The translations under genes and the position numbers were made by a program. DNA of 36,591 bases from Thiotrichaceae bacterium (GTDB lineage Bacteria; Pseudomonadota; Gammaproteobacteria; Beggiatoales; Beggiatoaceae). Positions 16,301 through 36,591 of this stretch are shown piece after piece. The first letter of the stretch is position 1. Every line of letters begins with the position of its first letter. The notes beneath the pieces are model-generated. The model was not told where the DNA came from and ran no database searches. It saw nothing but the letters and a program-made list of their open reading frames with translations. Location: contig JALWSU010000444.1 in NCBI GenBank assembly GCA_026993485.1, forward strand, positions 1 through 36,591, read 5' to 3'.

Positions 16301-17710
16301 TTATTTTAGAACTCTCATCATCAGCGTACCAGGCATCGGATCTAAACCAGCAATGAAGCGAATTTGCGCCAATGTAGTATGCACTTTAGCATAAGCTAAT
16401 TCTCGATTAATTTCAGATAAGAGTTTCTTCGCACGTATAAAAATCATTTCAAAATCATCATATTGCAATTTATATAATTGTTTTTCTACCCCAGATAAGT
16501 CCTGTGCTAGCTTGAAGTCTTCAAGTGCAATTTTATATTTATGATAGGAAAACCACAGTTCAGTAAGAACTGCCATACTTAATGCCATCCGTTGATGATC
16601 ACTTAATATCAATCGAGCTTCACTTGCTTTCTTATTCGCCAAACCACCCGTAAAAACATTCAATAAATTCCACGATATTTGTAATCCAGCTTGTCGCCAT
16701 TTTGGATTAGAAAGAAATTGATTACTACTATAATACCCTCCCCAAGAAATTTCTAAGCCGGGAAATAATCGTAAAATAGATTTTTTTATCTCTAATTGAT
16801 TAATACGCTTTTGATAATCAGCTTCTCGTAACAGCGGTTGATTAAGCAAGGCTTGAGATTCCAAATCTTCTAAAGAAACTTTTAATGTTGGGATTTCATA
16901 ATTATCAGGAACGACTACATCATAAGCTGTGCCTGGTGGTAGATTCATTAACCTAGCTAATTGCGTCTTTGCCTGAGATAATTCTCCCTGTAACATAACG
17001 AATTGTTGGTAGGTTTCCAATAAACGCTTGCGATAAGAAAGAATTTTTTCAGATTCATTTATCTGTTCTTTAGAACGTACTAGCAGTACTTGAATATCAT
17101 CCAATAATTTATCAATAGAGGGTAATAAACGTTGGGCAGCCACCGTTTGCCAATAATAGCCTTGTATTTCTTTAATCATGGTTTGAACCATTTGTCGTCG
17201 CCGCTCCTTGGCTATTAACACCTCATTACCTAACTGTTGAGCAACCACATAGCTGATTCCAAAATCCAAGACATTTAATACCACATTAAAACTAATAACT
17301 GCATTATCACGCGGTTCAGTAGTAGAAGCTTCTAAACTTTGTTGCCCAGTTATCAAAGATTGATAAATACCACCACTATCATTACTACGCTCCTGATAAC
17401 CTGCTGCTAAAACTAAATCAGGTAACATCTTATAGTTAGCAACCTCAAGTAAACGCTCTTTAAGGGCTATTTCCATGACTTTAACCCGATGCGCTAAATT
17501 ATATTTTAAGGCACGCGCGATAACATCCCATAAATTTAGGGGTTTTGTAATAGCTATTTGCTGTTTATATAGTTTGGAAAGATCCTTATCAACTCTATTT
17601 TCAACTGGTTTTGGTTTCAAAGCTATAGGTTTTACCGCACATCCCACAGCTAAAAATAATCCCAAGAATATAACGAACAGTTTTTTTAGATTTGTTTTTA
17701 GTATTAACAT
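16301..17710 (-). CDS. TolC-family outer-membrane lipoprotein, second copy (pel-associated)
   Basis: The 469-residue protein starts with a lipoprotein signal ('VIFLGLFLAVGC', Cys24). It continues with the two-fold repeated architecture of outer-membrane efflux proteins: long amphipathic helices alternating with beta segments such as 'VISFNVVLNVLDFGIS' and 'GLQISWNLLNVFTGGLANKK'. TolC-family trimers form channels across the outer membrane and periplasm. A clear paralogue lies at the other end of the Pel block (35091-36591), with shared blocks 'LNVLDFGIS', 'IKKSILRLFPGLEIS' and 'WNLLNVFTGGL'. The ATG at 17710 overlaps the end of the upstream pelF-like gene by 7 bp, so it belongs to the Pel transcript. 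No adaptor or pump gene lies nearby. The exported substrate is unknown; Pel or an associated polymer is inferred. Confidence 0.85.
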   Translation of the reverse strand: MLILKTNLKKLFVIFLGLFLAVGCAVKPIALKPKPVENRVDKDLSKLYKQQIAITKPLNLWDVIARALKYNLAHRVKVMEIALKERLLEVANYKMLPDLVLAAGYQERSNDSGGIYQSLITGQQSLEASTTEPRDNAVISFNVVLNVLDFGISYVVAQQLGNEVLIAKERRRQMVQTMIKEIQGYYWQTVAAQRLLPSIDKLLDDIQVLLVRSKEQINESEKILSYRKRLLETYQQFVMLQGELSQAKTQLARLMNLPPGTAYDVVVPDNYEIPTLKVSLEDLESQALLNQPLLREADYQKRINQLEIKKSILRLFPGLEISWGGYYSSNQFLSNPKWRQAGLQISWNLLNVFTGGLANKKASEARLILSDHQRMALSMAVLTELWFSYHKYKIALEDFKLAQDLSGVEKQLYKLQYDDFEMIFIRAKKLLSEINRELAYAKVHTTLAQIRFIAGLDPMPGTLMMRVLK

Positions 17711-19269
17711 GCTTGATTATTATTAGTTCCTAATAGCGATTTAAACATGAATTTTCCATTTTTAATATTTTGTTTTCTCATTTTAGAAATCAGTTCTTTA
17801 TATACAATAGAGTATTTGTCTCTGAATTGTTCTTCAGAATAATATTTTTCAATACGTTGAATACCTATTTTCCCCATTTTATTTGCCAGAGTTCGATTAT
17901 TTAGAATACGCATGGTTTTGGTTGCAATATCATAACTATCCATAATATTTGCAATATATCCAGCTTGTCCTAAATTATCATCAATACCATAAAGCAGTTC
18001 TTTACAAGCACCAACTTTCGTCGCAACCACAGGTAAACCACTAGCCATCGCTTCCATGACGACTAAAGGCATAGTACTTTTGATAGAAGTCAATAAAAAC
18101 ACATCCATTTTTTTATAAAACTCAAGCGGATTAGCATTTTCTATAAAACTCACCACAGTTTCTAAATTTAATAATTCACGCAAGGCTAAACATTCTTTAT
18201 AATAATGTTCTTCTTTATTTTGCTTCTGTTTTTGCTTTTGCCCAATCAAATAAGCTTCAATATTTGGATGAAATTCTTTGATAATTGCAACCACATTCAA
18301 AAATGTTTTGATATCTGTACTCTCCTCAATTCTACCAATCATACCAATAACAGGAGGCTGGCTTGTTATCCTAGTTCTTCGCGCTTTTGTAAATAAATTA
18401 ATTGGGATTCCATTGGGAATCACTCGCACTTTTCTAGGATTGGCACCGTATTCTGCAATTAATTTTTTATTACCTTCAGAAAAGGTAATCAGTGTTGTAA
18501 CGGTTTCATATTCAAATTTGATCAGTCTTTTAAAAAAATTACGCCACATTTCTTGCAAGTAAGGTTCATCTAACCATGATGAATTATCCAACAAGTTGAA
18601 ATCCATATCCTTTTCCTGCATATAGAGACTGTGTTCAGTGATTACAGAAGGTTTCTTATAAAGCGCAGTCATCATACAAACCAAAAATCCAGCAAATCCG
18701 GTGCCAGCAGCATGGTAAATTTTAGCCTTAGGAAGACGATTGATAAGCATAAATACTCGCCAGATTTTTAAATGCAGATTACGCCAATTATAATAATATT
18801 TGAGAAAGCCATTTTTTCCATGCTTTTTGGCATAGATTTCACCTAACAAAGTAAATCCACTTTCAGAAAGCAGGAAATGTTTAAAAAATCCGTCCTGATA
18901 TTTTTCTAAAATATCCTTAAAGAGTTGACATTCATCATCATTTAGCTGTCCTCTTCTAAAACTGAAGCGTGAGATTTCATGAATCAGTAAATCGATTCGA
19001 TTCTTTTCTAATTTAGTAAATTTTACTAGCTTGGCATCTTTTATAGTCGTATAGTCAGATAAATTAAATTGTTGAAATGAAATAACATTTTCCGGCAAGG
19101 AATAGCGCATATTCCAAATCTTTTTAGATTCGGTTGTCAATGCTACCACAGCAAAGGTCATTTTTTTTTTATAACATTTGATTAAACCTTGTACCCAAGA
19201 AGCAACACTGCCAGTGGAATAAGGATAACTGTTTTCTATAATTAAGCAAACATCAGCTATCTCTATCAT
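17704..19269 (-). CDS. PelF-like glycosyltransferase with eroded active site (second copy)
   Basis: The 521-residue protein is a full-length paralogue of PelF (27727-29340). It has an N-terminal DUF3492-type domain ('ADVCLIIENSYPYSTGSVASW') and a C-terminal GT4 half ('PPVIGMIGRIEESTDIKTF'). Key residues differ. The EX7E motif, EAMPLSVME in the other copy, is STMPLVVME here, so the first Glu is Ser398. The donor-binding Lys (VKDIKTF) is Thr318. The N-terminal GGVSSW is GSVASW, and EHGIY is EHSLY. It may be a catalytically dead partner, or an enzyme of altered specificity. It overlaps the downstream TolC-like gene by 7 bp and begins 1 bp behind pelE, with AAGGA as ribosome site. The frame is intact, so it is not an obvious pseudogene. 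Confidence 0.85.
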   Translation of the reverse strand: MIEIADVCLIIENSYPYSTGSVASWVQGLIKCYKKKMTFAVVALTTESKKIWNMRYSLPENVISFQQFNLSDYTTIKDAKLVKFTKLEKNRIDLLIHEISRFSFRRGQLNDDECQLFKDILEKYQDGFFKHFLLSESGFTLLGEIYAKKHGKNGFLKYYYNWRNLHLKIWRVFMLINRLPKAKIYHAAGTGFAGFLVCMMTALYKKPSVITEHSLYMQEKDMDFNLLDNSSWLDEPYLQEMWRNFFKRLIKFEYETVTTLITFSEGNKKLIAEYGANPRKVRVIPNGIPINLFTKARRTRITSQPPVIGMIGRIEESTDIKTFLNVVAIIKEFHPNIEAYLIGQKQKQKQNKEEHYYKECLALRELLNLETVVSFIENANPLEFYKKMDVFLLTSIKSTMPLVVMEAMASGLPVVATKVGACKELLYGIDDNLGQAGYIANIMDSYDIATKTMRILNNRTLANKMGKIGIQRIEKYYSEEQFRDKYSIVYKELISKMRKQNIKNGKFMFKSLLGTNNNQAC

Positions 19270-19270: not shown

Positions 19271-20227
19271 TCATTCCTTATTTACTATGCTAACATTTTT
19301 TAAAAATGCTAGTTCGTCAAAATAACTTTTAAAAGTAGAGGAATAATCATTTTCGTCAAAAGTTGCCTTAACTTGATTAATAAATTTCTCAGCCTTTTCT
19401 ATTTGCTTATTTTCTAAAAAATATCTGATCGCCATGTTATAAGTGGATAAATTGGTATGTTCTTGTTTTTTTATGACTTTTTCTATAGCTTCACAGGCAT
19501 TATTAAGATAAAAGTGACCAATATGAGGATCCACCAGACCAATATAATAAATTTCATGATACAAATTAGCTAATCTTAATTGATCTGGTTCAGCTTGCCT
19601 ATTTAACTCTATCAACTCGTTTAAAATTTCATTACGTTTTTCATTAATAAGACGTGCAGCACCAACAATGATTGATGGATATTTACTATATTCCAACAAC
19701 ATTTGTAGAATACGGGTTTTATGTGGTGTCCACTTTAATTTATCCAATAAATTCAAGGTAGCTCTAGAATCCTCATAAGGTTGGCGGCCATGAATTAATT
19801 CAATCACCTTATCAGAGAGAAGATTATAATAAGATTCATCAATTCCAGTTAGGTTTTTATCTAAATAGTCTTGATTAATAACCTCATATTTCTCCATAGC
19901 AAGCGAACGAACTGGGGCATGCTTTAACGAAAATGCAAACGATAAAACCGATATTGGCCCTACTAATGGTAAACAAGCCAGAATAAACATATTTGTTTTC
20001 AATGCTTTACCAATAACAAAGTGAGACTTCAAATCTTGAAATTCGAACTCAATTTCAGCAATTGTGGATAAATAGCTTAAGCTGAGAAATACGCTAATAG
20101 CATGAGCAATAAAAAAAAGCAGCCACCATAGGCTGCTTTCTAGTAATAAAAAAATAATAACAAAACTTGTGTCAACTACCCATAAAGCTAAAATCACCCA
20201 AAGATATAATTTTTTTAATGTGTTCAT
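19271..20227 (-). CDS. pelE: PelE-like inner-membrane TPR protein
   Basis: 318 residues. Two adjacent N-terminal transmembrane helices (about 8-30 and 33-55) and a third hydrophobic stretch (about 78-98) precede a soluble helical domain. 'LNLLDKLKWTPHKTRILQMLLEY' and 'LSTYNMAIRYFLENKQIEKAEKFINQV' look like TPR-type hairpins. This architecture and the position after pelD match PelE, a part of the inner-membrane Pel synthase complex. It overlaps pelD by 56 bp. AGGAAA lies about 7 bases before its ATG at 20227, inside pelD. Sequence conservation of PelE is low, so the call leans on context. Confidence 0.82.
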   Translation of the reverse strand: MNTLKKLYLWVILALWVVDTSFVIIFLLLESSLWWLLFFIAHAISVFLSLSYLSTIAEIEFEFQDLKSHFVIGKALKTNMFILACLPLVGPISVLSFAFSLKHAPVRSLAMEKYEVINQDYLDKNLTGIDESYYNLLSDKVIELIHGRQPYEDSRATLNLLDKLKWTPHKTRILQMLLEYSKYPSIIVGAARLINEKRNEILNELIELNRQAEPDQLRLANLYHEIYYIGLVDPHIGHFYLNNACEAIEKVIKKQEHTNLSTYNMAIRYFLENKQIEKAEKFINQVKATFDENDYSSTFKSYFDELAFLKNVSIVNKE

Positions 20228-21431
20228 TTTTAATTTCCTGCCAATTGTCTCCCAATTTTTTCTCCTTGAATTTGGCTAAGATTGGTGATAATTCTTCAGC
20301 AAAACCAAATAGCACAACAAGTTTATCTCCAATAAGAAACTTGTCATCAAATTCCCGCGTTTGTAATTCTAATCCTGTTACTAAACTTTCCAGTTGAGTT
20401 TCTGATAGATTACCAATTGGTAAATAAGCTAGTTTATAAGACAACTTTGCTTGTTGAAATAATGTTAGCCGTTTTTTCAGAAAACCTTCAGCAATCTCTG
20501 GTTTAAATACTAATACATTTTTAAATAAGCTATATTCCAACATAGTTTCCATATATAGCTTCTTTTCTAAATTAAATCTTAGGGCTAGAGCAAGGACATA
20601 CAAACCAAGCAAAACCTCCTCTTTTTTCATAGTATAACGGATACGCTCTATCACAATCACATATTCCATTAGATTACCCTTCATTACAGGGATAGAAATA
20701 ACAAATTGATTAATTTCTGCAATAACTTTAAGTGAAATAATTTGTTTTTCTAGTTGCAGTACCTGAAACCATTCTGGTGCGTCACTTGTCACAATCTTAT
20801 CTGGAAAATCAATGGGATTAGAAATCCCATACCTAAATAAGCTAACATATTGATTATTATCAATGTCTAGTTTATAAACGATCCCTCCTTCAACAAAAGT
20901 ATAGCGGTAAAGCATTGTAAAAATGCGGGAAAACATTTCTAGTTCTTCATTGGTATCTTTAAGGATTTGACGTAATTCATGATAAAGGTAAGTTGGGCGA
21001 TCAACACGAAAATAACTCTCACCTAAAAATTGTTTATGTGACGTATCAATTAAGGCAATTTGAGATTTCAGCTCCTCAATTCTTTTTTGGGCGATAATGT
21101 CAGTTTCTCTTAAAACTCTATGTTCTCTATCACTAGTTTCTTTTTGGTATCCAACAATTAAAATGAGTAAGAAACCCATAATTAGAATTAATCCATCTTC
21201 TAGATTAATTAGACTCAATGCAAAATGATTTAAGCTAATTATCGCTAACAATAAAGCAATGCTACCGACAATTATACCCATAATTCGGTAAAACAGGGCA
21301 AAAATAATCCCTACAAAAATAAAAATATAAGGAATTAATTTTACTGGTAACAAATGCCAAATACCAAAAAATAAAAAACTATAAATAACAGCTATTTCAA
21401 TATAAGGTAAAAAATATCTTATTTGATTCAT
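20172..21431 (-). CDS. pelD: PelD c-di-GMP receptor of the Pel synthase
   Basis: 419 residues: four transmembrane helices in the first 100, a coiled coil (about 105-130), a GAF domain (about 150-300) and a degenerate GGDEF-like domain at the end. In that last domain Arg359-Glu-Phe-Asp362 followed by 'DKFLIGDKLVVLFG' aligns with the inhibitory-site RxxD and the GGDEF loop. The catalytic GGDEF residues are lost but the c-di-GMP site is kept, as in Pseudomonas PelD. The additional arginine used by that protein has no obvious counterpart (Lys residues at about 391-392). Its ATG directly follows the pelB-barrel stop (TAAATG). Binding of c-di-GMP is expected to switch on synthesis after translation. 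Confidence 0.93.
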   Translation of the reverse strand: MNQIRYFLPYIEIAVIYSFLFFGIWHLLPVKLIPYIFIFVGIIFALFYRIMGIIVGSIALLLAIISLNHFALSLINLEDGLILIMGFLLILIVGYQKETSDREHRVLRETDIIAQKRIEELKSQIALIDTSHKQFLGESYFRVDRPTYLYHELRQILKDTNEELEMFSRIFTMLYRYTFVEGGIVYKLDIDNNQYVSLFRYGISNPIDFPDKIVTSDAPEWFQVLQLEKQIISLKVIAEINQFVISIPVMKGNLMEYVIVIERIRYTMKKEEVLLGLYVLALALRFNLEKKLYMETMLEYSLFKNVLVFKPEIAEGFLKKRLTLFQQAKLSYKLAYLPIGNLSETQLESLVTGLELQTREFDDKFLIGDKLVVLFGFAEELSPILAKFKEKKLGDNWQEIKNEHIKKIISLGDFSFMGS

Positions 21432-22883
21432 TTACTTAAACCGCCAATTAATGCCAAGATCACCCCTAGTTTCCCCATCCCCGCTTAAACTATCAATACG
21501 GTATTCTAGGCCTCCTAGAAAATCTAAATCTCTATCAAAACTGTAACGCAAACTTACTTCTGGAGTTGCAGCAAGTCCTTCAAAATTTTCTCCACGCATA
21601 TAACCAATAGTAAAACTATAATGGAACAGGTTTTTATAAGGCCCAAAATAGCGCAATCCAGAAATAACATAATAAGGCATATCGAAACGGCGAACAATAT
21701 AATCCGTATTCCCTTTACCCTGAATATGTACCCAACCAATGCCATGTTGCAAGGTGGGACTTTTATCGTCAAGAATATACATAAAATAAGGATGTAAAAT
21801 ATGCATATAACCGACTTCTTCACCGCTATCTGGTAACTTATAATCACTATAAGTATAACTACCTCCAAGAATAGTTTTTCTTCCAGGTTTATAGTAACCT
21901 GATATTGTTCCGCCACTTTTCAGCGCAAAATTCTTGAGTAATGCCGTTACATCAGTCTCCACATCACGATAATATCCTTTAAAAGCCAACTGAGAAAATC
22001 CTAGACGGCGACGCTGCCATCCAGCCTTAAAGCCGAACTGATTATCGCTTGATAATGCCGCAAAATAAAGTTTATCCTTAAAGCCTACAACTTTATCAAT
22101 CTTTAAAGAAAACTGATCTTTACCATTGAAATTATAATCTTTGAATGTCACTCGTCCCCAATTAGTTATGGGAAACATCAGCTCAGTTTCTACTGGATAG
22201 AAAGTACCATGCAGTTTATTATCAATAAATTTTATTCTAGTACTAATATGTGGAGACCAAAACCGCCTCTTATCCATACGCAGCCATTCTGCCTGCTGTT
22301 GCTCGTGTGGGGTATATTCGACATTGCCAATAACCTTACCCAATAAAGCCTCTGTTGTATCTAACTCTCCAGCCATCAAAGCAAAATAAGCTGCATAAAT
22401 ACGATTACCACTAATATCCTTATAATCTTTAACCCAATCAAAGGCTTCCTGATATTTACCATAAGCTAACAACAGTTCCGCCTGTTTAAAAGCATAACGA
22501 ATACTAAATTCTTTATTTTGATACTTTTGCTGCAATGCTGCTAACATGCTTAAATGCTGATTTTTGTCATTATAGCGTAGTTGCGAAAGCATCCACATAT
22601 CCAGACGAGATACTAATAAAGAATTTAAATGTTGAATAGTTTCCCTATAACGCCGTTGAGCTACTAACATATCCATATAATTAAAAGAAATCTCCAACGG
22701 CACCTTTGGCTCTTGCAATAATTGTTGATAAATTTTTTCGGCTTTTTGTGTTTCACCAATATTGCTTAAAGCCCATGCCTTATCGCGCTGTTTCTGAATG
22801 TTATTCTCGCTGCCCTCACCCTCACCCTCAGCATTAGCTGTAAAAAACAACGCTGCTAAAAACAGGCAAATCAATACTCTCAT
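21432..22883 (-). CDS. pelB: PelB C-terminal half: secreted TPR plus outer-membrane beta-barrel
   Basis: 483 residues with its own signal peptide ('MRVLICLFLAALFFTANA', cleavage after Ala18). A few TPR-like helices follow ('KAWALSNIGETQKAEKIYQQLL', about 30-190). From about 210 on, alternating amphipathic strands rich in Tyr, Trp and Gly are typical of an outer-membrane barrel, ending in 'GDLGINWRFK'. In Pseudomonas the barrel is the C-terminal third of one PelB of almost 1200 residues; here it is a separate protein. The 16-strand count is taken from that family. It begins 2 bp behind the TPR gene, with GAGGA 8 bases before the ATG, so both are made from one transcript. It probably is the Pel export channel. 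Confidence 0.88.
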   Translation of the reverse strand: MRVLICLFLAALFFTANAEGEGEGSENNIQKQRDKAWALSNIGETQKAEKIYQQLLQEPKVPLEISFNYMDMLVAQRRYRETIQHLNSLLVSRLDMWMLSQLRYNDKNQHLSMLAALQQKYQNKEFSIRYAFKQAELLLAYGKYQEAFDWVKDYKDISGNRIYAAYFALMAGELDTTEALLGKVIGNVEYTPHEQQQAEWLRMDKRRFWSPHISTRIKFIDNKLHGTFYPVETELMFPITNWGRVTFKDYNFNGKDQFSLKIDKVVGFKDKLYFAALSSDNQFGFKAGWQRRRLGFSQLAFKGYYRDVETDVTALLKNFALKSGGTISGYYKPGRKTILGGSYTYSDYKLPDSGEEVGYMHILHPYFMYILDDKSPTLQHGIGWVHIQGKGNTDYIVRRFDMPYYVISGLRYFGPYKNLFHYSFTIGYMRGENFEGLAATPEVSLRYSFDRDLDFLGGLEYRIDSLSGDGETRGDLGINWRFK

Positions 22884-22885: not shown

Positions 22886-25348
22886 CTAAGAATCCTCTGC
22901 TATGATTTGAATCAGTCGTATATTTGTTTCCCTGAAAGGCTTTTCTTGTCCCAAACGTTTATATAAAAGTGCCAAATCTTTTAAAACTTTAATCTTATCA
23001 TCAAGTTTCTCAGTTTTTGTATTTTTATGTTGTTTTAACCAGCGTTTATGCAAATTGATAGAGTTTTGCCAACGACCACTTTTTTGATAAGCTTGAGCAA
23101 TAGTAATCACTACTTCGCTAGACATTTTCGAGATAGGTAATGTTTCTAGCACCGCCGCTTGTTTAGCATATTGCTTATCTTTACCATAAGCAAAGGCTAA
23201 CATTAATTTATATTCATCCTTACCAGTTTTATTCAGTAATTTCGCTAAAATTTTAGCTGCCTTTGAATAATCATGTTTAACATAAAGATAATGCTTAGCT
23301 AACTTCTCCCCATGATTATTATTCGGTTGTTGTTGAAAAACAAATTCTAAAGCGGTTTCATATTCTTTCTTGCTAATATTGTGAGCTGTACTTAAATAAA
23401 TTGGCTCATATTTATTATGATTTATCTGATAAAGTCTTTTATAAACAGACACAGCTTGTTTTTGTTGTCCTTTTTTTATATAAAGGTAAGCTAAACTTTC
23501 CAAATATTTGGGATTTCGAGTTTTTCTATAAAGCTGTTTATAATCATAAACAGATAATTTAGTTTTAATTGGCTTAGATTGCCTAGATTGCCTAGATTGC
23601 CTAGATTGCCTAGATAGATTTTTTTGGACATAGGTTAATTGCACAGTTGATTTGGGCAAATATTTTTTATTACGAGTTATTTTGTAAAGCTTTTTATAAA
23701 GAGATGCTATTTTTGCCCTTTGTCCAGTTTTAGTATAAAGAGCAACTAAAACGTCTACATAACCTGATTTTTTAGGGTGTTTCTGCACTAAGCGGCTAAA
23801 ATAATAAATTGCTTTTTTGTGTTCCTTCTTTTTTAAGTAATAGTAACCCAAAAACTTATCGGAACGTAAAAACGGATAAGTTTCCATTAAATTAACTAAT
23901 TTTGCGGGTTTATTACTATAAACTGCTGCTAATTGTTTTAAATATTTTCGGTTTTGAGTGTGTTTATAAGACTGAAGCAAAATATCTGCCATCATGTTTT
24001 TATCTTTTAGTACCGAAGCCAAACTATAACTCTGTTTTAATGCACTAAAATCATGCCATTTTTTCCATATCATAAGATAAGTTTTCAAGGCTTTTTTCTG
24101 TTGCCGGCTATCTATATAAATTTGGGCTAATGTTTGCTGATATTTCCGATTTTTTGGGTATTTTTTTGATAAAATCCGAAATTGTTTTTCTGCCCCTAGA
24201 TAATCTTTGTCGTCAAGATAAAGTGTAGCTAAATTTTCTAAATATTGCTTCTCTTTGGTGCGTTGCGCCAAGAGACGCAACAATTGTTTCATTTTTGGCT
24301 TATTTTTTAACTCATAAGCCAAATTATAGGCGGCTTTTAAGGCAGGCACTGTTCGCCATTTTCGCCAGATTTTTTCATAAATAGCTAATGCCTTTACTTT
24401 GTCATCGCGCTGGTTATAAGTTTCCGCTAAACGAAAGGCATAAGTAGGCTTATAATTAGCTAATTGAGATAAATATTGAAATTCTTCAATAGGTAAATCA
24501 GCTACTTTAGCAGTAAAATAGGCTTTTTCTAACAGTTTAACATCATGATATTCTTGGTAAGCCCCCCAATAAGTCGCTGCGGTATTTTCTGCATCACCGA
24601 GTTTTTGATAAAGAAATGCTAAACGCTCATAATCCGTGAAACTTTGGATTAAACCAACATGCTTGAGTGCGCTATTATAATCTTTCTTTTCTACATATAA
24701 GTTGATCAAATCCCCTCTTAATTGATCATTATTTTCCATTGCTAAACTACGTTCCATCCAACGAATTTTTAAATCAGAATCCTTGCTCCATAAAGCCACT
24801 TTTAAAGCTGCATCCACCTTTTCCTTAGAAAAATTTTTACCTGCTGCTTCTTGCCATTCGCTCTCATAAACATTAACCGCTTCAGCAAAGCGTTGATTCC
24901 AAATTAAAAAATCTTTTAAGTAATCGGTTTGTTTAAATAGCTTTGCAAAAAAGATAACCGTATCTTGGTTTTCTTTAAGCGTTTTATTTTTTTCCCATAA
25001 GGCATTCGCATATAATAAGACGTTTTTAAAATAAGCTTCATCCCGAAATCCTAAATCGTAAAGTTTTTTGACTGTCGCTTTATAATTAGGCAAATCTTGC
25101 CTATCACGATATAGTTGTGCCAAACGCTTCAATGCCAGAAACTTGTTTTGTGGTAATGTTTCAGTTTCTGCCGCCCGTTTATAATAAACAATTGCCTGAT
25201 CGTATGAACCCGTCTTGACAAAAGAATCGGCTACGTTCATTGCAGGTGGCCTCAACAAATAATAAAGAAAACCTAAACATATAAAAATCAATATAAACAG
25301 CCACTTATTAAAAATAGGGGTTGGACGATAACTACTGGAGTAATTCAT
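22886..25348 (-). CDS. pelB: PelB N-terminal half: membrane-anchored TPR scaffold
   Basis: 820 residues: one N-terminal transmembrane helix (about 14-34, 'WLFILIFICLGFLYYLL'), then a long series of tetratricopeptide repeats. A recurring pattern of the type 'K.YL..LA.LY..K' can be followed almost to the C-terminus. No beta-barrel is present; the frame stops at the last repeat and a separate barrel gene follows 2 bp later. In Pseudomonas PelB the TPR region binds PelA and guides deacetylated polymer; I infer the same. A short Ser-Arg-Gln repeat (about residue 580) interrupts the TPR array. Its start overlaps the upstream hydrolase gene by 17 bp. Confidence 0.88.
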   Translation of the reverse strand: MNYSSSYRPTPIFNKWLFILIFICLGFLYYLLRPPAMNVADSFVKTGSYDQAIVYYKRAAETETLPQNKFLALKRLAQLYRDRQDLPNYKATVKKLYDLGFRDEAYFKNVLLYANALWEKNKTLKENQDTVIFFAKLFKQTDYLKDFLIWNQRFAEAVNVYESEWQEAAGKNFSKEKVDAALKVALWSKDSDLKIRWMERSLAMENNDQLRGDLINLYVEKKDYNSALKHVGLIQSFTDYERLAFLYQKLGDAENTAATYWGAYQEYHDVKLLEKAYFTAKVADLPIEEFQYLSQLANYKPTYAFRLAETYNQRDDKVKALAIYEKIWRKWRTVPALKAAYNLAYELKNKPKMKQLLRLLAQRTKEKQYLENLATLYLDDKDYLGAEKQFRILSKKYPKNRKYQQTLAQIYIDSRQQKKALKTYLMIWKKWHDFSALKQSYSLASVLKDKNMMADILLQSYKHTQNRKYLKQLAAVYSNKPAKLVNLMETYPFLRSDKFLGYYYLKKKEHKKAIYYFSRLVQKHPKKSGYVDVLVALYTKTGQRAKIASLYKKLYKITRNKKYLPKSTVQLTYVQKNLSRQSRQSRQSRQSKPIKTKLSVYDYKQLYRKTRNPKYLESLAYLYIKKGQQKQAVSVYKRLYQINHNKYEPIYLSTAHNISKKEYETALEFVFQQQPNNNHGEKLAKHYLYVKHDYSKAAKILAKLLNKTGKDEYKLMLAFAYGKDKQYAKQAAVLETLPISKMSSEVVITIAQAYQKSGRWQNSINLHKRWLKQHKNTKTEKLDDKIKVLKDLALLYKRLGQEKPFRETNIRLIQIIAEDS
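23572..23616. repeat. In-frame 9-bp tandem repeat inside the pelB TPR gene
   Basis: Units of GCCTAGATT: an imperfect first unit at 23572-23580, three perfect units (23581-23607) and a last variant (23608-23616). On the coding strand each unit adds Ser-Arg-Gln, giving 'SRQSRQSRQSRQS'. Because the period is three codons, gain or loss of units keeps the frame, so the linker between TPRs can vary in length. Confidence 0.9.
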
Positions 25349-26105
25349 GCGCTAATTTCCAGAAAATACCCATTTGTTGGGCTTGATTTTGCAAATTACG
25401 AATATCCTGCTCACTTACTTTCTCGGCATAGTCAATTGCTAAAATAAATTTCTTATCTTGTTTTAAACGTGTTACCCATCCAGAAAGCCAAGTCATATCT
25501 TGCTTTCCTCTCCTAACAAACTTGCCATTTTTTTTATCATAAAAAAAAGACTCAATTAAAACACCTTGTATCAGATTTTTTATTTTTGGATAAATTGCAA
25601 ATCCTCGATTAATAATAATTTTTCCCTCGGTTTTAGTTCTAATATAAGCGACTAGTTCTTGAGCCTTATTTTTATAAATATCACATTTCTCGGAATGTAA
25701 AATACATAATATTTCCACACCATCTGCTGTGTCAAGAAATACTTGTTGATAATCTTGTTTTAAGATAAATGACAATTCTTGCTGAATTACTTTTTGCCAT
25801 GCAGGATGCGTAATATCAACTAAAACAGATGCCCAGGCTTTATTATCTTTAATTATCGCTTCTTTGGGGAACTTAGCAAAATAAGGCGAGAATTGATTAA
25901 TTTCCGTTAAAGATAAATAAGCATAGCTCTTGTTTTTATTACCTTGCACTTTTGCATACGGATTCAAAATAAATATATCAATTGTCTCAGGAATAACAAC
26001 TTTATTTGAATAATTAATAATAAATGATAAGGAATCATGAGTTTGTTGAGAACAAGATAAAATTAATACACTAGAAATCATCAGCAATTTCTTTAATAAT
26101 GACAT
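25332..26105 (-). CDS. pelA: PelA hydrolase-domain lipoprotein (GH114/GH166-like)
   Basis: 257 residues from the ATG at 26105; a longer TTG-started frame to 26132 is less likely. It has a lipobox ('SSVLILSC', Cys18) and then a single glycosidase-type barrel. Marks are 'AYLSLTEINQ', 'DITHPAWQKVIQQEL', 'QVFLDTADGVE' (Asp125, Asp128), 'KIIINRGFAI' and 'QGVLIESFFYD'. Glu185 in the last is the likely counterpart of the catalytic Glu of the PelA hydrolase domain. In Pseudomonas this domain is the N-terminal part of PelA and cuts Pel; here it stands alone without the deacetylase. It overlaps pelG by 35 bp and the pelB-TPR gene by 17 bp. Position between G and B supports the PelA assignment. Confidence 0.83.
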   Translation of the reverse strand: MSLLKKLLMISSVLILSCSQQTHDSLSFIINYSNKVVIPETIDIFILNPYAKVQGNKNKSYAYLSLTEINQFSPYFAKFPKEAIIKDNKAWASVLVDITHPAWQKVIQQELSFILKQDYQQVFLDTADGVEILCILHSEKCDIYKNKAQELVAYIRTKTEGKIIINRGFAIYPKIKNLIQGVLIESFFYDKKNGKFVRRGKQDMTWLSGWVTRLKQDKKFILAIDYAEKVSEQDIRNLQNQAQQMGIFWKLAHELLQ

Positions 26106-27474: not shown

Positions 27475-27729
27475 TCGGACTTACGCACTGACAGCATAAG
27501 TTGATTAGTTTTTTAATAAAAACAAAGTGTTAAAATTTATAACTAACTTACTTGGAGTCCAAACGAAGTAAGCGTAGCTAAAGCTTTAGCTTTAGCTTAG
27601 CTTCGCTTACTTCGTTTCGCTTACTTCGTTTCGCTTACTTCGTTTGGAAGGTCCAAAGCTAAAGCTTCTTCGCGTCTCTTCGCTCCAAGGAGAAACTCAA
27701 AAAATTTGTTTGTCAATGCGTAAGTCCTA
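27475..27729. repeat. Expanded MITE-like element between pelF and pelG
   Basis: 255 bp. The left end TCGGACTTACGCACTGACA and the right end TTTGTCAATGCGTAAGTCCTA (up to 27729, here one base longer than the common end) mirror each other with few mismatches. The interior holds the shared 'ttataactaacttacttgg', 'gtccaaagctaaagcttctt' and 'ctccaaggaga' blocks plus three perfect 14-bp units CGCTTACTTCGTTT (27604-27645). The last three bases (27727-27729) are the stop codon of pelF. It has no coding capacity. It may change pelG expression relative to pelF. Confidence 0.87.
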
Positions 27730-29340: not shown

Positions 29341-29355
29341 GTTATGCCTCATTAA

Positions 29356-30324
29356 CTATATATAAATTTCCCGTGTTCTCCACATATCCTTAACGGATTG
29401 TTGCAGTGTGATGGAAGGTGTCCAATCCAACTCTTGTTTGGCCAAAGTTGCATCTGCTGCTTGTTCTGGTACCGAAAATTGGCGACGATTTGTAGTACTT
29501 TCGTATTTTACCCCTAAACCAGATTCTTTAATTAACAATTCTATGATTTCTTTTCCCGAGGTTTTTTTCCCACTACCAATATGATAAAGTCTTCCAGCTT
29601 TGCCTTGTATTAATGCCATTAATATGGCACGGGAAACATCTCGAATATCGGTATAATCCCGTAACGTAGTAAGATCACCAAATTCTAGAGTCTTCAGTGG
29701 TTCACCTCCTGCCATTGCTGCAAGTAATTTAGTACAACGTCCTGATAGCAATGTGTCTGGTAATCCAGGGCCAATCAAATTGAACAGTCTTAGCCTAACT
29801 ATATTTTGTTGATGGCGCAAGTAAGCCGCATGAGCTACCATAGATTGTGATAATTTGGAAATACCATAAGGATCAACTGGTTGACATGCTGCATTTTCAG
29901 CCAGCGGCAAATCTTCTGGAGAACAATAGCCGATTTCGGCAGAAGAGCCAATAATAACAACGCGCTTCTCGGTTCCCATTTTGTCACGCATGGCTTCTAA
30001 TAAATAGTCTGTTGCAACTACATTGCCATCTAAGACTTGTTGCAATGAACCAAATCGTTGACTGGCTAAATGTATAACAATATCTGGACGTACTTCTGTC
30101 ACCAGTTTAACTACTGAAGCCTTAGAAAATAGTTCTACCGAATAATAAGCATCTAATCCTTTCACAACTGCGGTTTTTCGTCTCGCAATACCTACAATTG
30201 TGCTATTAACGAAAGCTTCTTTTAGTGATGCAACTAAGTGTGTTCCGACAAATCCAGTACAGCCAGTAACGAGAATACGGCTATTTTTTAGCTGATTTGT
30301 TATAATATTCTGGGAGAAATACAC
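29356..30324 (-). CDS. NAD(P)-dependent nucleotide-sugar epimerase/reductase (SDR)
   Basis: Extended short-chain dehydrogenase with the Rossmann motif 'GCTGFVGTHL' (about 21-30), 'IVIHLAS', the Ser-containing 'IIGSSAEIGY', and catalytic Tyr153-x-x-x-Lys157 in 'DPYGISK'. 'RLFNLIGPG' follows. It resembles GDP-4-keto-6-deoxymannose reductases and related 4-reductases. The frame is open back to 30378. I favour the GTG at 30324 with GAGG 9 bases before it; an ATG at 30366 is the alternative. It overlaps the nucleotidyltransferase gene by 44 bp and lies 15 bp before pelF, so it belongs to the Pel transcript. The exact substrate cannot be read from the sequence. Confidence 0.85.
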   Translation of the reverse strand: MYFSQNIITNQLKNSRILVTGCTGFVGTHLVASLKEAFVNSTIVGIARRKTAVVKGLDAYYSVELFSKASVVKLVTEVRPDIVIHLASQRFGSLQQVLDGNVVATDYLLEAMRDKMGTEKRVVIIGSSAEIGYCSPEDLPLAENAACQPVDPYGISKLSQSMVAHAAYLRHQQNIVRLRLFNLIGPGLPDTLLSGRCTKLLAAMAGGEPLKTLEFGDLTTLRDYTDIRDVSRAILMALIQGKAGRLYHIGSGKKTSGKEIIELLIKESGLGVKYESTTNRRQFSVPEQAADATLAKQELDWTPSITLQQSVKDMWRTREIYI

Positions 30325-31021
30325 TTGGATTAGCCTCAAAGCGTTCGTTCGCGTCTTGATAATCATCAGGCCGTCCAATATCTAACCATGTACCTTTAGC
30401 CTGATGACAATAGAGATATTCATCTTTTTTGATTAGAAGCCGCATTAAATCAGGAAAATCCTGATATTCGTTATACTTAATATAATCAAGAATACGTTTA
30501 TTTAAGATATAAATTCCAGCACTGGCTTGATAATAGAGTATAGGTTTTTCTGTATATTCAAGCAATTGATTTTTATCATAGTCAATTTTAAGTACCCCAA
30601 GTGAAATAGGAACTTCCTTGCGGAAGGTGGCAATCGTAGCGATGGGTTGCACTTGTTTATGATGGCTCATCAATTCTCCATAATTCAGATCAGTCAGGAG
30701 ATCGCCATTCATCACCAAAAAATCCTCATCCAAACGCTCTTTTAGTAGACCGAGTGGCCCAGCAGTCCCAAGGGGCTCATCTTCACGAGAATAGCTGATT
30801 TCAAGTCCCCATTTATGACCATCTCCAAAATAAGCTTCAATCAGTGCCGCTAAATGACTGACTGTAAAAATAAGTCGGTCAAAACCATAACTTTTTAATT
30901 GCCGAATAATTACTTCTAAAATCGGCATGTCTTCCCCGATGGGAATTAAAGGTTTCGGTAAAATTGTGGTGTAAGGACGAAGTCGTATTCCTTTGCCACC
31001 AGCTAAAATAATCGCTTGCAT
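30281..31021 (-). CDS. Sugar-phosphate nucleotidyltransferase
   Basis: 246 residues starting with the nucleotide loop 'AIILAGGKGIRLRPYT' and 'PKPLIPI'. 'VMNGDLLTDL' (metal-binding Asp), 'EKPILYYQASAGIYIL' and 'GTWLDIGRPDDY' follow. This is the short class without a C-terminal beta-helix, as in mannose-1-phosphate guanylyltransferase-like and PtmE/LegF-side enzymes. It activates a sugar-1-phosphate with an NTP. It lies between the LegB-like dehydratase (23 bp) and the reductase (overlap), which points to a single NDP-deoxysugar pathway. The nucleotide (GTP, UTP, CTP or dTTP) is not decidable here. Confidence 0.88.
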   Translation of the reverse strand: MQAIILAGGKGIRLRPYTTILPKPLIPIGEDMPILEVIIRQLKSYGFDRLIFTVSHLAALIEAYFGDGHKWGLEISYSREDEPLGTAGPLGLLKERLDEDFLVMNGDLLTDLNYGELMSHHKQVQPIATIATFRKEVPISLGVLKIDYDKNQLLEYTEKPILYYQASAGIYILNKRILDYIKYNEYQDFPDLMRLLIKKDEYLYCHQAKGTWLDIGRPDDYQDANERFEANPSVFLPEYYNKSAKK

Positions 31022-31044: not shown

Positions 31045-32037
31045 TTATACTTGATAAGTATTTACTTTATAGAGATCAATATGATCTGTAATAAAATTAA
31101 TAACCTGACTCAAACCAGCTTCAAAATTTACCGTAGGAGTCCATCCTGTGAGCTTGTTGATTTTTTCAGCATTACAAAGTAATTCAAACACTTCACTTTT
31201 ACTCGGTCGCACTCGCTCTTCTTCACATTTGACTTCAACTTCAACATTCATAAGAGTGAAAATCTTTTCAGCTAGTTCACCGATTGTAATCCCTTTTCCA
31301 TTACCAGCATTGCAAACTTGACCGATAGTTTTATCTGATTCTGCAACCGCAATAAAGGCGCGTGCTGTGTCTTTAACAAAGGTGAAATCACGAATTGGTG
31401 AGAGTGATCCTAATGTAATAGTTCTGGCACCACTAACTATTTGACTGATAATGGTAGGAATGACAGCACGGGCGGATTGACGAGGGCCATAAGTATTAAA
31501 TGGGCGAAGTATAGACACGGGGAGTCCAAAACTTCGATAATAGCTTTCAGCTAAACTATCAGCAGCAATTTTTGAAGCCGAATAAGGTGATTGTGGTTGT
31601 AACGGATGCTTTTCATCAATTGGTGTATATTGTGCCGTGCCATAAACTTCTGAAGTAGAGGTATGAACTACCCGTTGAACATTACAAGCAAGGGCTGCTT
31701 GTACAACGTTTAATGTTCCCCTTATATTAGTTTCAACATAGCTGGCAGGTGCAATATAAGAATAAGGAATACCAATAAGTGAGGCTAAATGAAATACAAC
31801 ATCACGACCTTCCATAGCTTTGTTTACTGAAAAATAGTCAGTTAAATCATAAGCACGTACATCAATGGCATCACGAATATTTTTTGGCAGTAGTTCTAAA
31901 TTTCCCCAATCATTACGGGAATTATAGTGAACCATTGCCCTAACATCTGCACCTAGCTCAACTAAAATTTCAGTTAGATGGCTGCCGATAAAGCCTCCTG
32001 CACCAGTGATTAAAACTTTGCTTTTTGATATATCCAT
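31045..32037 (-). CDS. LegB-like nucleotide-sugar 4,6-dehydratase (SDR)
   Basis: 330 residues: 'VLITGAGGFIGSHLTEILV' (NAD loop), 'VVFHLASLIGIPYSYIAPASYVETN', 'HTSTSEVYGT', and catalytic Tyr152/Lys156 in 'QSPYSASKIAAD'. 'RPFNTYGPRQSARAVIPTII' and 'DFTFVKDTARAF' follow. From memory these blocks agree closely with Campylobacter LegB (GDP-GlcNAc 4,6-dehydratase of the legionaminic acid route) and its relatives. I cannot run an alignment. The remaining leg genes are not in the window. As first gene of the three-gene sugar module it may form a 4-keto-6-deoxy sugar that the downstream SDR reduces. The 260 bp upstream hold the triplicated palindrome. Confidence 0.85.
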   Translation of the reverse strand: MDISKSKVLITGAGGFIGSHLTEILVELGADVRAMVHYNSRNDWGNLELLPKNIRDAIDVRAYDLTDYFSVNKAMEGRDVVFHLASLIGIPYSYIAPASYVETNIRGTLNVVQAALACNVQRVVHTSTSEVYGTAQYTPIDEKHPLQPQSPYSASKIAADSLAESYYRSFGLPVSILRPFNTYGPRQSARAVIPTIISQIVSGARTITLGSLSPIRDFTFVKDTARAFIAVAESDKTIGQVCNAGNGKGITIGELAEKIFTLMNVEVEVKCEEERVRPSKSEVFELLCNAEKINKLTGWTPTVNFEAGLSQVINFITDHIDLYKVNTYQV

Positions 32038-32297: not shown

Positions 32298-34892
32298 TTA
32301 TTTCAGCGTAATATTACCAGTGTGCGTACCAAAGCTATCAAATTTCATTTCAACCACATTATTAGGTAATGAACTGACACTATCAGCACCAGTGATATTG
32401 AACTGGCTTTCTGCTCCATTCAGAACTATACGCACTTTGCCTTCACCCTTAAAGGTATAATTCAAATTAGTACCATCACCATTGAGCGAAATTAATTTCG
32501 CACGCATAGGTAGCCTTGCAATATGTGTGACAACATCCTGAGTTGTGCCTAACTGTATGACAAAAGTGCCACCATCATTATCAAGAAACACTTTATCATT
32601 ATTGTAAGCATACCAATTATTGACGTTTTTGATTATTTCGCCATTCTGCGGTGCAATTTGCAAAGCAAATTTACCAACATTGGTTGCATTAACGGTTGCA
32701 GTAATCAGATTACCATTATGGCTAACGCTCAAATCAGCATTTCTTAAAGTCTCAATACGTTGAGTTACATCTGCTAAGGTCACAAATTCCGCATTATCAT
32801 TGAATGCCATAGCTATAGTATTTTCATACATAGCAACTGTATATCCATCGCCATTTACTGGATCAGCAGCAATAGTAGGTCCGTAATCATGCCAAGGCCA
32901 CATAATAATAGGTTCAGAGCTATGTCGTGTTAGATAAGCATATTCATTTTGCCAATACACTTCAGCTTCAGCCGCTGTTAATGGTACTGGTACGGGTGGA
33001 TTGCCTACTGGTACACCATACTGAATCAAGGTATAATCAAAAGTCATATCTGGGCTAAAATAGACTTTATTGGAATCTGGCTTGAGATAACCAAAAGCTC
33101 CAGGATAACCAGCATGTACACTAGAAAAACCACCAGTTAGATAGTTCAAATATTGAACAATTTCTGTTGCAGTATTAACACTCTCTGGCGCACCAGGTAC
33201 TGCACTGCCACGTATTGTCTCATCTCGCCAAGTTTTATTATTAAGTTGGCTACTGATTTCATTCATAGATTGGTTGAACTGAAACTCAATTTCGCTGGGA
33301 GTCAATTCATCAGTAACATTTGGATGTGTCCATGAATGCGTACCAATTTCATTACCAAGAGCGATGTACTTTTTGAACAGAGGCGCAGAAACAGCCCAAT
33401 CAGTCCATTCTCCAATTTCCGGATTATTACCAATATCAATGAAAAAAGAACCAACAAAATTATAATCTCTCTTCCAATTGACTAACAAATTATAAAGTGG
33501 TACATGAACTATCGGAACTTCATCATGTTGCATCGCTTCATCTGTATCATTACGCGAAACAAATAAGCTATTATAACGCCCCATTTTTAAACCAACTGGT
33601 ATATCGTTACCATAAATAACCCATTGCAGTGCTTGCCATACTAAGTTACCATCTCCCATGAGTCCAACACTAGCAAAATGCACATTTCGCCCTCCTGTAA
33701 TACTGGCTAAGATTGCGTTATAAGTGCCAGAACTATTACCAGTTACAGTCTCATTAGCTAGTACAGTTACGGCTTGACCTGATACTGGTGTAAAATAACT
33801 ATACCAATTCTGGCTATAATCAAAAATTAGCTCATTTGTGGTATAACCTTTCATCACTGGATGAGTAACATCCACTGCTTTAACGCTGATGTCAACTGGG
33901 CCTTCACCATCTACCCTACCAATACCTAAAAGTTGTTTCATATATCTATATGAATCCCCAGGTAAAGGGGTACCATTTTCATCATTAGTTAAAAAATCAC
34001 CGGCAGTAATAATGCCAATGTTGTAATGATAAATCGCCTTAAATAAGGTGTCATGAACGGCTGCTAAGATATTATTAGGTATTTCCGCGAAATAAGGAAA
34101 AATCAGCGCATCATAATTGACAATATTAGCCACATCTGTTAGATCATTTTCCGTCAGCAGGTCAAAAGAAATACCTGCCATCATTGCCTGATGCTGCATC
34201 GCCATAAAAAGCTGCGAATAGGCTTTCTCATCATAAAATTGGTTTTTGCTAGTCTCACCAAAAACGATACCTACCCGTTTATTAAAATCAATTCTAGGTG
34301 GTAAAACCTCAACCGTACCAGGAATGGTATATTGCCCTGTTGAAGAATCGGCTGGCAAGAAAATACTATCATTAATATCAACTAAAATATCAATCGCTTG
34401 ATTTGGCATTAACGATAAGGTACTAGCGGGTATGGCTACTTCCAAAATTTTATGATCGGCACTATAAGCGTGTACCAAAGGACCGCCAATCCAAGCAAAG
34501 CTCTGATTGTAAAGATGTGGTTGGGAATCTATAACAACATTAAGATAATATTCAGCTCCCCCCACATTTTGTAATCCAGTAGCACGATTCTGATCCGTGT
34601 TAAACCACACTGTTGTATTTGCCCCAATTGCAGGACCAGTTGATTTCAGAGCAATCACATAGGTTGCTTCAGGAGTATTAACAAATTTCCCATAGATTTC
34701 AGGCCCAGTAGCCAAATAAGGTGGCAAATTATCTGGTAAATTAATACGATCAGACAGCGTCCAATCATTTAAATCCCCATCAATGTTGATATTGCCAAAA
34801 GTATTAGCAAAAACATTAACAGTGCTTAGATATAAAAACAGAGTACCGAGCAACAAAGGTAAACTGTATTGATTTGTTCTCTGGTTAAACAT
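32298..34892 (-). CDS. PelA-like secreted polysaccharide deacetylase with N-terminal sugar-binding-like domain
   Basis: 864 residues. A signal peptide (about 1-30) is followed by a beta-sandwich resembling CBM9/DOMON domains ('NINIDGDLNDWTLSDRI', 'WFNTDQNRATG', about 33-195). A GATase-like alpha/beta domain follows ('RVGIVFGETSKNQFYDEKAYSQLF', about 205-430). Next is a NodB-type deacetylase (about 440-710): Asp449/Asp451 in 'RNDTDEA', His519-x-x-x-His523 in 'GTHSWTHP', and 'WPWHDYGP'. A beta-rich tail (about 720-864) ends the protein. The order of the middle and deacetylase domains resembles Pseudomonas PelA without its hydrolase, which is encoded separately at 25332-26105. A perfect AAGGAGG lies 6 bases before the ATG, the strongest ribosome site in the block. 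Deacetylation of Pel in the periplasm is inferred. Confidence 0.82.
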   Translation of the reverse strand: MFNQRTNQYSLPLLLGTLFLYLSTVNVFANTFGNINIDGDLNDWTLSDRINLPDNLPPYLATGPEIYGKFVNTPEATYVIALKSTGPAIGANTTVWFNTDQNRATGLQNVGGAEYYLNVVIDSQPHLYNQSFAWIGGPLVHAYSADHKILEVAIPASTLSLMPNQAIDILVDINDSIFLPADSSTGQYTIPGTVEVLPPRIDFNKRVGIVFGETSKNQFYDEKAYSQLFMAMQHQAMMAGISFDLLTENDLTDVANIVNYDALIFPYFAEIPNNILAAVHDTLFKAIYHYNIGIITAGDFLTNDENGTPLPGDSYRYMKQLLGIGRVDGEGPVDISVKAVDVTHPVMKGYTTNELIFDYSQNWYSYFTPVSGQAVTVLANETVTGNSSGTYNAILASITGGRNVHFASVGLMGDGNLVWQALQWVIYGNDIPVGLKMGRYNSLFVSRNDTDEAMQHDEVPIVHVPLYNLLVNWKRDYNFVGSFFIDIGNNPEIGEWTDWAVSAPLFKKYIALGNEIGTHSWTHPNVTDELTPSEIEFQFNQSMNEISSQLNNKTWRDETIRGSAVPGAPESVNTATEIVQYLNYLTGGFSSVHAGYPGAFGYLKPDSNKVYFSPDMTFDYTLIQYGVPVGNPPVPVPLTAAEAEVYWQNEYAYLTRHSSEPIIMWPWHDYGPTIAADPVNGDGYTVAMYENTIAMAFNDNAEFVTLADVTQRIETLRNADLSVSHNGNLITATVNATNVGKFALQIAPQNGEIIKNVNNWYAYNNDKVFLDNDGGTFVIQLGTTQDVVTHIARLPMRAKLISLNGDGTNLNYTFKGEGKVRIVLNGAESQFNITGADSVSSLPNNVVEMKFDSFGTHTGNITLK

Positions 34893-34977: not shown

Positions 34978-35030
34978 TGGAGTCCAAAGCTTTAGCGGTG
35001 GTCGCACCAAAGCTAAAGCTTTGGACTCCA
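34978..35030. other. Large perfect hairpin upstream of the deacetylase gene
   Basis: TGGAGTCCAAAGCTTTAGC (34978-34996) is mirrored exactly at 35012-35030. A second small stem GGTG/CACC lies in the loop. TTTTTTT follows on the plus strand only. In the leftward Pel transcript it would be a stem without a U-tract, between the TolC-like gene and the deacetylase. The arm sequence equals the interior of the MITE-like elements, so it may be a remnant core of one. The rest of 34893-35090 shows only the deacetylase ribosome site. Confidence 0.7.
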
Positions 35031-35090
35031 TTTTTTTATTTACTGACTAGTTTATTATTATGATTTAAAACCACACACTTTGTCAAAGTA

Positions 35091-36591
35091 CTATTGTTGT
35101 GCATAACGTTTCTGTTGTAGTCCAAAACCTTGCATGTATATTTCTATTTCTTTTGACAAAGTTGGAATATCGTCAATGACAGTCATTGTTTTAGGCGCAG
35201 GGGTATAAATTTGATATAAATTGAGTACCTGATGCGCTGTTAGCGTCTTAGGTAGTGGATCCAAACCGACAATATATCGCAGTTTCGCCATTGCATTTTG
35301 TACTTTTACATAAGCTAAATCTTTCGCAACTTGTGACTGAAATTTTTCAGCACGGATAAAAAGCCCATCAAGATTTTCAGAGCCTTGATTTTCTGCGGCC
35401 TCAGCAAGCCGAGCCAGCTTCTCATTAACTATATAAAGTTCATCCGTAAGTTTATAATTTTCAAGTGAAAGCTTATAGCGTTGGTAAGAAAGCCGGACTT
35501 GAGTTAGTATTGCCATACTTAATGCCAAACGTCGATGATCAGCTAAAACCACTTGAGCCTCGGCAGCCTTTTTGGCACTCAATCCACCCGTAAAAACATT
35601 CAACAAATTCCACGATACTTGTAAGCCCGCATTAATCCAACTTTTGTTATAGAGGAATTTATTACTACTATAATTTGTCCCCAAGGAAATTTCTAATCCT
35701 GGAAACATCCGTAGTATAGATTTTTTGATTTCCAATTTACTAATACGTTTCAGATAATCAGCTTGTCGTAAAGCTGGTTGATTTAATAATGCTTGATACT
35801 CCAGTTCATCAACAGATTTCTCTAATGGTGGCAATTCATAATCTGCTGGAATTGCAACCTCATAAGTTGTTCCAGGTGGCAAGTTAATTAACTTAGCTAA
35901 GCGTATTTTTGCTAAAGATAATTTTTCGCTGAGCTTGAGCAATTTTCTTGCAGTTTCCAATAAACGTTTTTGAGTAGACAAGGCCTGTCGCGGATTTTCT
36001 AACATTTCTGGTTCTAAAGTTTTATAACGACTTAGTTGCGATTGTATCTCTCTTAGCATAACTTTGAACTGTGGTAGTAAGCGTTGAGCCGCTACTGCAT
36101 ACCAATAGGCTTCTTGCACCTCTTTAACAATTTTTTGAATAATACTACGCCGTCGTTCTCTTTCAATCATTACTTGATTAGCTTGCTGTTCAGCAATAGC
36201 ATGGCTAATACCAAAATCTAAGACATTCAAAACGACATTAAAACTGCTAGTCAAATAATCGCGTGGTTCAGTTGTAGAAGCTTCTAAACTTTCTTTACCT
36301 GTCAACAAAGATTGATGAATACCACCACTATCATTATTACGCTCACTGTAGCCAGCCGCTAATACTAAATCAGGCAACATACTATAATTAGTAACATTCA
36401 GTAAACGTTCATGTAGGGCAATTTCCATGAGTTGGGCACGATGTTCTAAATTGTATTTTAAAGCACGGGCTATTGCATCCCATAAAGTCAGAGATTCGGT
36501 AATAGGTTCTTGCTTTTCAAACATTTTTTCCAGATCGCGTTCTATTCTAGTTTGAATCTCTTTTTGTTTTAAAGTTATTGTTTTTACAGTG
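35091..36591 (-). CDS. TolC-family outer-membrane protein, first copy (cut by right edge)
   Basis: The frame is open to the right edge. The codons before the Met at 36524 continue in frame and match the other copy ('TVKTITLKQKEIQTRIERDL' against its mature N-terminus), so the gene starts outside the window. About 500 codons are visible. They show outer-membrane efflux protein architecture, with shared blocks 'SFNVVLNVLDFGIS', 'LINLPPGTTYEVAIP', 'IKKSILRMFPGLEIS' and 'VSWNLLNVFTGGLSAKKA'. The C-terminus is longer than in the other copy by about 45 residues. A lipobox like that of the paralogue would lie just beyond the edge. It is the first gene of the visible Pel block. Confidence 0.85.
   Translation of the reverse strand, partial: TVKTITLKQKEIQTRIERDLEKMFEKQEPITESLTLWDAIARALKYNLEHRAQLMEIALHERLLNVTNYSMLPDLVLAAGYSERNNDSGGIHQSLLTGKESLEASTTEPRDYLTSSFNVVLNVLDFGISHAIAEQQANQVMIERERRRSIIQKIVKEVQEAYWYAVAAQRLLPQFKVMLREIQSQLSRYKTLEPEMLENPRQALSTQKRLLETARKLLKLSEKLSLAKIRLAKLINLPPGTTYEVAIPADYELPPLEKSVDELEYQALLNQPALRQADYLKRISKLEIKKSILRMFPGLEISLGTNYSSNKFLYNKSWINAGLQVSWNLLNVFTGGLSAKKAAEAQVVLADHRRLALSMAILTQVRLSYQRYKLSLENYKLTDELYIVNEKLARLAEAAENQGSENLDGLFIRAEKFQSQVAKDLAYVKVQNAMAKLRYIVGLDPLPKTLTAHQVLNLYQIYTPAPKTMTVIDDIPTLSKEIEIYMQGFGLQQKRYAQQ

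Follow-up and report, generated by a model that had tools for sequence, protein, structure and literature searches.

Does the gene block that fills the right half of a 36.6-kb contig from one Beggiatoaceae MAG (3.2 Mb, 94% complete) encode a Pel exopolysaccharide system of its own kind, and which of its genes belong to that system? The window, meaning the whole stretch of 36,591 nucleotides analysed here, is the entire contig. Its left flank is ordinary chromosome (pilMNOPQ, class A PBP, plsY, yebC, ruvCA, DAHP synthase and metW). A plasmid origin was considered and dropped, the plasmid PelFs being at most about 34% identical. An earlier note had described overlapping Pel genes on one strand in the order F-G-A-B-B-D-E-F, and this was confirmed (F1-G-A-B-B-D-E-F2). 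The full transcription order on the (-) strand is TolC1–deacetylase–SDR1–nucleotidyltransferase–SDR2–pelF1–pelG–pelA(hydrolase)–pelB(TPR)–pelB(barrel)–pelD–pelE–pelF2–TolC2 (Table 1), and from pelG through TolC2 every intergenic gap is 2 bp or less, or an overlap. A search for Rfam elements, a c-di-GMP riboswitch for example, gave none, and a promoter scan returned 78 promoters where 83 were expected.

Table 1. Features of the Pel block, in transcription order.
Feature	Position	Strand	Description	Evidence
TolC1	35091..36591	-	TolC-family outer-membrane protein, 5' end off contig	PF02321 110.7 bits
Deacetylase	32298..34892	-	secreted CE4-like polysaccharide deacetylase, 864 aa	PF01522 22.5 bits (cut-off 23.1)
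SDR1	31045..32037	-	LegB-like NDP-sugar 4,6-dehydratase	TIGR04180 471.7 bits (cut-off 475)
Nucleotidyltransferase	30281..31021	-	sugar-1-phosphate nucleotidyltransferase	PF00483 139.9 bits
SDR2	29356..30378	-	epimerase/reductase-type SDR, start uncertain	PF01370 136.9 bits
pelF1	27727..29352	-	GT4 synthase, R...K and EX7E intact	NF038011 348.5 bits
MITE-like element	27477..27727	.	between pelF1 and pelG	terminal inverted repeats GGACTTACGCAYTGACA
pelG	26071..27432	-	divergent Pel transporter	PF16933 156.6 bits (cut-off 29)
pelA (hydrolase)	25332..26105	-	hydrolase domain alone, GH166-type, probable lipoprotein (lipobox LILSC)	5TCB E=3e-14
pelB (TPR)	22886..25348	-	TPR half, inner-membrane anchored	TPR families; canonical PelB HMM E=1e-6
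pelB (barrel)	21432..22883	-	porin half with signal-like N-terminus, short TPR and predicted outer-membrane beta-barrel	hhalign
pelD	20172..21431	-	4 TM, GAF, degenerate GGDEF with RxxD (R359-D362)	hhalign vs canonical PelD
pelE	19271..20227	-	4 predicted TM, TPR-like C-terminus	hhalign vs canonical PelE
pelF2	17704..19269	-	GT4 homologue	NF038011 316.7 bits
TolC2	16301..17710	-	TolC-family protein	PF02321 79.9 bits

The PelF, PelG and PelA hydrolase assignments were upheld by curated models (NF038011, cut-off 100 bits, and PF16933) or by the match to solved PelA. The hydrolase scored 111.6 bits against a canonical PelA HMM, and its D134, D137 and E194 are invariant across 15 PelA hydrolase sequences. 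A profile search against the cut-off revealed no second PelG in the genome, and pelF1 and pelF2 are its only PelFs above the NF038011 cut-off.

Pfam models fail to match PelD, and none of them exceeds its cut-off with PelE. A search of the genome with PF16963 (PelD) gave no match; the controls were likewise silent, so that its absence is uninformative. In hhalign comparisons, a lone canonical sequence for each family lacked the power to identify them, whereas canonical profiles built from 16-17 operons of the phylum resolved both proteins. The PelD type matched canonical PelD at 97.8% (E=8e-13, 375 columns aligned) and the PelE type matched canonical PelE at 98.7% (E=3e-16, 322 columns aligned). 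Mismatched-family controls gave 0.2-0.6% and reversed profiles about 1% or less, while with shuffled columns the highest scores were 26 for PelD, whose real score was 102, and 29 for PelE, whose real score was 120. The matches persisted at 96.7% and 98.5%, respectively, when the bridge genome described below was left out. PelD is identified additionally by R359 and D362 of the RxxD preceding the degenerate GGDEF, which are invariant in all 13 aligned PelDs. When only sequences of this PelD type entered the profile, no solved PelD was recovered from the PDB at E<=1, and the AlphaFold model of the protein was poor (pLDDT 45).

The PelB parts proposed in the earlier note fared unequally. The TPR half, with a predicted N-terminal TM at 16-34, is recognised by TPR families and by the PelB HMM. 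Evidence for the barrel is weaker: hhalign aligned it with PelB barrels of Alphaproteobacteria at 65% (E=6e-5) and a score of 46.6, where no null exceeded 22.5, which supports a PelB porin assignment with moderate strength. P. aeruginosa PelB carries its TPR and barrel parts in one chain (PMC12141448); the split here therefore lies between scaffold and porin. A PelC HMM that detects PelC in a control operon (L106) and in the bridge operon gave no hit anywhere in the window, nor in any of the sister core loci. In a search for CE21, the canonical PelA deacetylase, only the hydrolase domain of PelA was matched in the block.

The order of the core genes is found again in a second phylum. When the genome collection was scanned, a single PelF query found nothing and a PelF alignment found Marithrix, Desulfofervidaceae and Muiribacteriota. 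A Ca. Desulfofervidaceae MAG (L050) has pelG-pelAh-pelB-pelB-pelD-pelE-pelF in identical order; a true galE, divergently oriented, lies next to it on the upstream side. Two genomes of the host's family are Ca. Marithrix, which makes the host a probable large sulfur bacterium of Beggiatoaceae type. Both keep barrel-D-E-F together with pelG on another contig, and a Ca. Muiribacteriota contig carries pelG-D-E-F. The Marithrix pelG adjoins an SDR gene, apart from the other pel genes (L011:17945-19303, L014:1970-3328). The bridge genome G596 (L072), from the phylum of the Desulfofervidaceae MAG, has a pelC end, a pelA split into a hydrolase and a separate CE21 part (510 bits), a split pelB and a divergent pelD-E-F-G in which this PelD type stands in the canonical PelD position. 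Its operon is intermediate between the types. This type of Pel is rare, being present in 1 of 369 genomes of the class (a sample without Marithrix) and in 2 of 297 in the phylum of the Desulfofervidaceae MAG.

In trees, PelF and PelG of this type were each separated from 16 canonical rows with 100/100 support; these rows are proteobacterial, with Gram-positive and thermophile sequences not included, so that distinctness is demonstrated relative to proteobacterial Pel only. Together with the recurring order, this bears out the distinct subtype that the earlier note had suspected. Judged by sequence, the core pelG-Ah-B(TPR)-B(barrel)-D-E-F is a genuine, recurrent Pel variant, neither pelABCDEFG nor pelDEADAFG. 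We consider it very likely that the block represents a separate Pel lineage and that its core would export its product as a c-di-GMP-gated, synthase-dependent exopolysaccharide system.

As in the Pseudomonas-type pelABCDEFG operon, PelD, PelE, PelF, PelG, the PelA hydrolase and a TPR-plus-barrel PelB are all represented and the c-di-GMP RxxD site is kept. The block differs from that operon in its order (G-A-B-B-D-E-F), in having PelB in two genes, in lacking PelC and a CE21 deacetylase, in a duplicated PelF of which one copy is degenerate, and in its PelG, which scores 156.6 bits compared to 374-560 for the other Pseudomonadota PelGs above the PF16933 cut-off in the sample. With the pelDEADAFG operon of Bacillus cereus (PMC7112168, PMC13254593) it shares PelD-E-F-G, a hydrolase and a deacetylase on separate proteins and, in the Desulfofervidaceae relative, linkage to galE. 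The order differs from D-E-A(DA)-F-G, however, and outer-membrane parts (TPR and barrel genes) are present here. Seven alphaproteobacterial operons (L110-L113, L115-L117) combine canonical order with a split pelB, some with a split pelA and some without a recognised pelC; the splits themselves are thus not the novelty. Bundalovic-Torma et al. (2020) had reported pelB fission, pelA rearrangement and pel duplications (PMC7112194), which puts the novelty below what the earlier note implied. Passages of that paper on such variants make no mention of a degenerate PelF. Pel-like operons with PelA, PelE, PelF, PelG and a transmembrane protein suggested as PelD have been described in the Seep-SRB1a/1g partners of methanotrophic archaea (PMC10553843), and by that description they would fit the present type.

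The most specific new prediction concerns PelF2. The two PelFs share 52% identity and group with the Marithrix PelF in a single clade (support 99/97), which places the duplication within this lineage. It is pelF2 that occupies the ancestral PelF position, at the PelDE-linked end of the core. In an alignment of 23 PelFs, PelF2 was altered at 11 of 69 near-invariant columns. Among these changes, T318 replaces the conserved GT4 Lys (K318T), S398 replaces the first Glu of EX7E (E398S), and G21S is a further change. PelF1 was altered at 5 of the 69 columns, H190Q among them, and kept the Lys and both Glu residues; the PelFs of the relatives were altered at 0-2. A Glu-Lys pair has been described as a common GT4 feature (PMC13104830), and in the GT4 enzyme GnaT the E283A substitution, at the Glu equivalent to the first EX7E Glu, nearly abolished activity (PMC12856342). 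By analogy, we infer a PelF2 with no activity or a greatly reduced one. PelF1 would then polymerise, with PelF2 probably a non-catalytic structural or regulatory partner of PelD and PelE, a role that is less certain than the identity of the Pel lineage. A further-reaching reading of the whole block, which we hold to be less likely than not, is a Pel lineage that exports without PelC and, in this genome, has a hetero-PelF synthase, in which a dead PelF2 would work with an active PelF1 drawn from an upstream module of a non-PelA deacetylase and sugar-nucleotide enzymes, yielding a modified Pel.

PelF2 might instead be a decaying duplicate, ordinary Pel being made through PelF1. The excess of altered near-invariant positions is what decay would produce, yet the pelF2 ORF is full length, without stops or frameshifts, and tightly spaced with its neighbours. 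Its branch (0.55) is barely longer than that of PelF1 (0.52). Full length and branch length together argue that PelF2 was kept, against free decay, and we regard this explanation as unlikely.

The deacetylase was the one member whose earlier label failed. Called PelA-like, it scored at noise level against the canonical PelA and alphaproteobacterial PelA deacetylase profiles, and its designation as a PelA CE21 enzyme was dropped for want of a sequence match. No specific match to CE26, the pelDEADAFG deacetylase, was found, and a proven Agd3/CE18 or CE26 enzyme was likewise dropped after no sequence hit. Its PF01522 score falls just below the cut-off; all five family members match, and the protein carries an HSWTH metal motif. 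The predicted layout is a signal peptide, an N-terminal beta region, an alpha/beta domain, the CE domain with HSWTH and a C-terminal beta region. Agd3 and BcPelADA have an alpha/beta domain, a CE domain and a beta-rich end (PMC13254593), and the layout here may resemble theirs, a lead only, which rests on low-confidence secondary structure (AlphaFold pLDDT 36). Among 43 family genomes, homologues (60-61% identical) occur in Marithrix only. Of these 43 genomes, three have PelF and PelG, and the same three, representing two genera that are perhaps sisters, are the only ones to encode the deacetylase. Marithrix BB16 has two tandem copies (L125:13987-19555) and Canyon 246 has one (L127:15607-18366). 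A role of this protein in Pel is less certain than the identity of the lineage.

Between pelF1 and pelG lies a gap of 294 bp filled by the MITE-like repeat, and the pelF1 stop codon takes the first base of one of its terminal repeats. Further copies with the terminal inverted repeats GGACTTACGCAYTGACA are present at 8871-9014, 14234-14350 and 3230-3308. A repeated element exactly at this gap makes a short-read misjoin possible, though the copies are just 78-89% alike. Nowhere is the assembly weaker than at this element, which divides the conserved core from the upstream module. The stretch upstream of SDR1 holds three 46-nt direct repeats (32128-32269), and related copies occur near 3089-3204 and 5539-5604.

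The block could accordingly be two loci, an ancestral core pelG-A-B-B-D-E-F2 and an unrelated glycan module (deacetylase, SDR1, nucleotidyltransferase, SDR2 and PelF1), joined by insertion or misassembly, with PelF1 making a different glycan. Besides the MITE-filled gap, this would account for the GC content (0.30-0.33 in most core genes vs 0.34-0.40 in the genes upstream), for the tight spacing of SDR1-nucleotidyltransferase-SDR2-pelF1, and for the Marithrix deacetylase, which stands alone, unlinked to pel genes. It would, however, leave the core without an active polymerase, given that PelF2 lacks the catalytic residues. The single clade of PelF1, PelF2 and Marithrix PelF also speaks against it, as do the one strand throughout and the divergence of 11-22% among the MITE copies. 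We find this reading doubtful, to about the same degree as decay of PelF2.

The nucleotide-sugar module that the earlier note saw as embedded is present, upstream of the core rather than inside it. SDR2 falls below the GalE cut-off (TIGR01179, 107.9 vs 262.3). The LegB-like module may add a 6-deoxy-hexosamine; as no aminotransferase occurs in the module, this sugar is a guess. Such a module within the block would suit a PelF2 that is still active with an altered donor or linkage, the two PelFs making a heteropolymer, and so would its intact ORF, ancestral position and PelF1-like branch length. Because PelF2 has lost both members of the Glu-Lys pair that is widespread among GT4 enzymes, and given the effect of the GnaT substitution, we consider an active PelF2 improbable.

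Two TolC genes (57% identical) do frame the block, as had been noted, but their membership in the Pel type did not hold, since they are absent from Marithrix. No ABC transporter or membrane-fusion protein of type I secretion adjoins either TolC in the window, the region upstream of TolC1 being off the contig. The TolC homologues of five Beggiatoaceae relatives (L062, L063, L064, L065, L066) are all away from pel genes, and in four of the five the homologue adjoins a long surface-type repeat protein, as judged by eye; the two could form a secretion system. That the TolC pair serves as the outer-membrane exit in place of the PelB porin is the least probable explanation, despite the framing and the 7-bp overlap of TolC2 with pelF2, because a separate PelB barrel exists, Marithrix has this Pel type with no such TolC, and relatives without Pel carry TolC near surface-repeat genes.

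In our preferred reading, c-di-GMP bound to PelD would activate a PelDEFG inner-membrane complex. PelF1 would polymerise a nucleotide-activated hexosamine, probably UDP-GalNAc, and PelG would move the chain across the membrane, from where it would be led along the TPR scaffold to the porin, with no PelC ring involved. The PelA hydrolase would trim the chain and the unrelated deacetylase could take the place of the missing CE21 domain, while PelF2, probably a catalytically dead paralogue, would be a structural or regulatory partner of PelD and PelE.

The locus thus points to a Pel lineage whose PelD and PelE escape current family models. The occurrence of this lineage in large sulfur bacteria, in Muiribacteriota and in a sulfate reducer of the Desulfofervidaceae suggests that it passed between distant phyla. 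Two questions become testable: can a Pel system with a split PelB do without PelC, and can an exopolysaccharide synthase keep a polymerase as a subunit that no longer catalyses? Marithrix forms attached filaments, for which a polysaccharide sheath has been proposed (PMC4971068); in attached filaments of the Beggiatoaceae, the lineage described here is a candidate for the system that makes the matrix.
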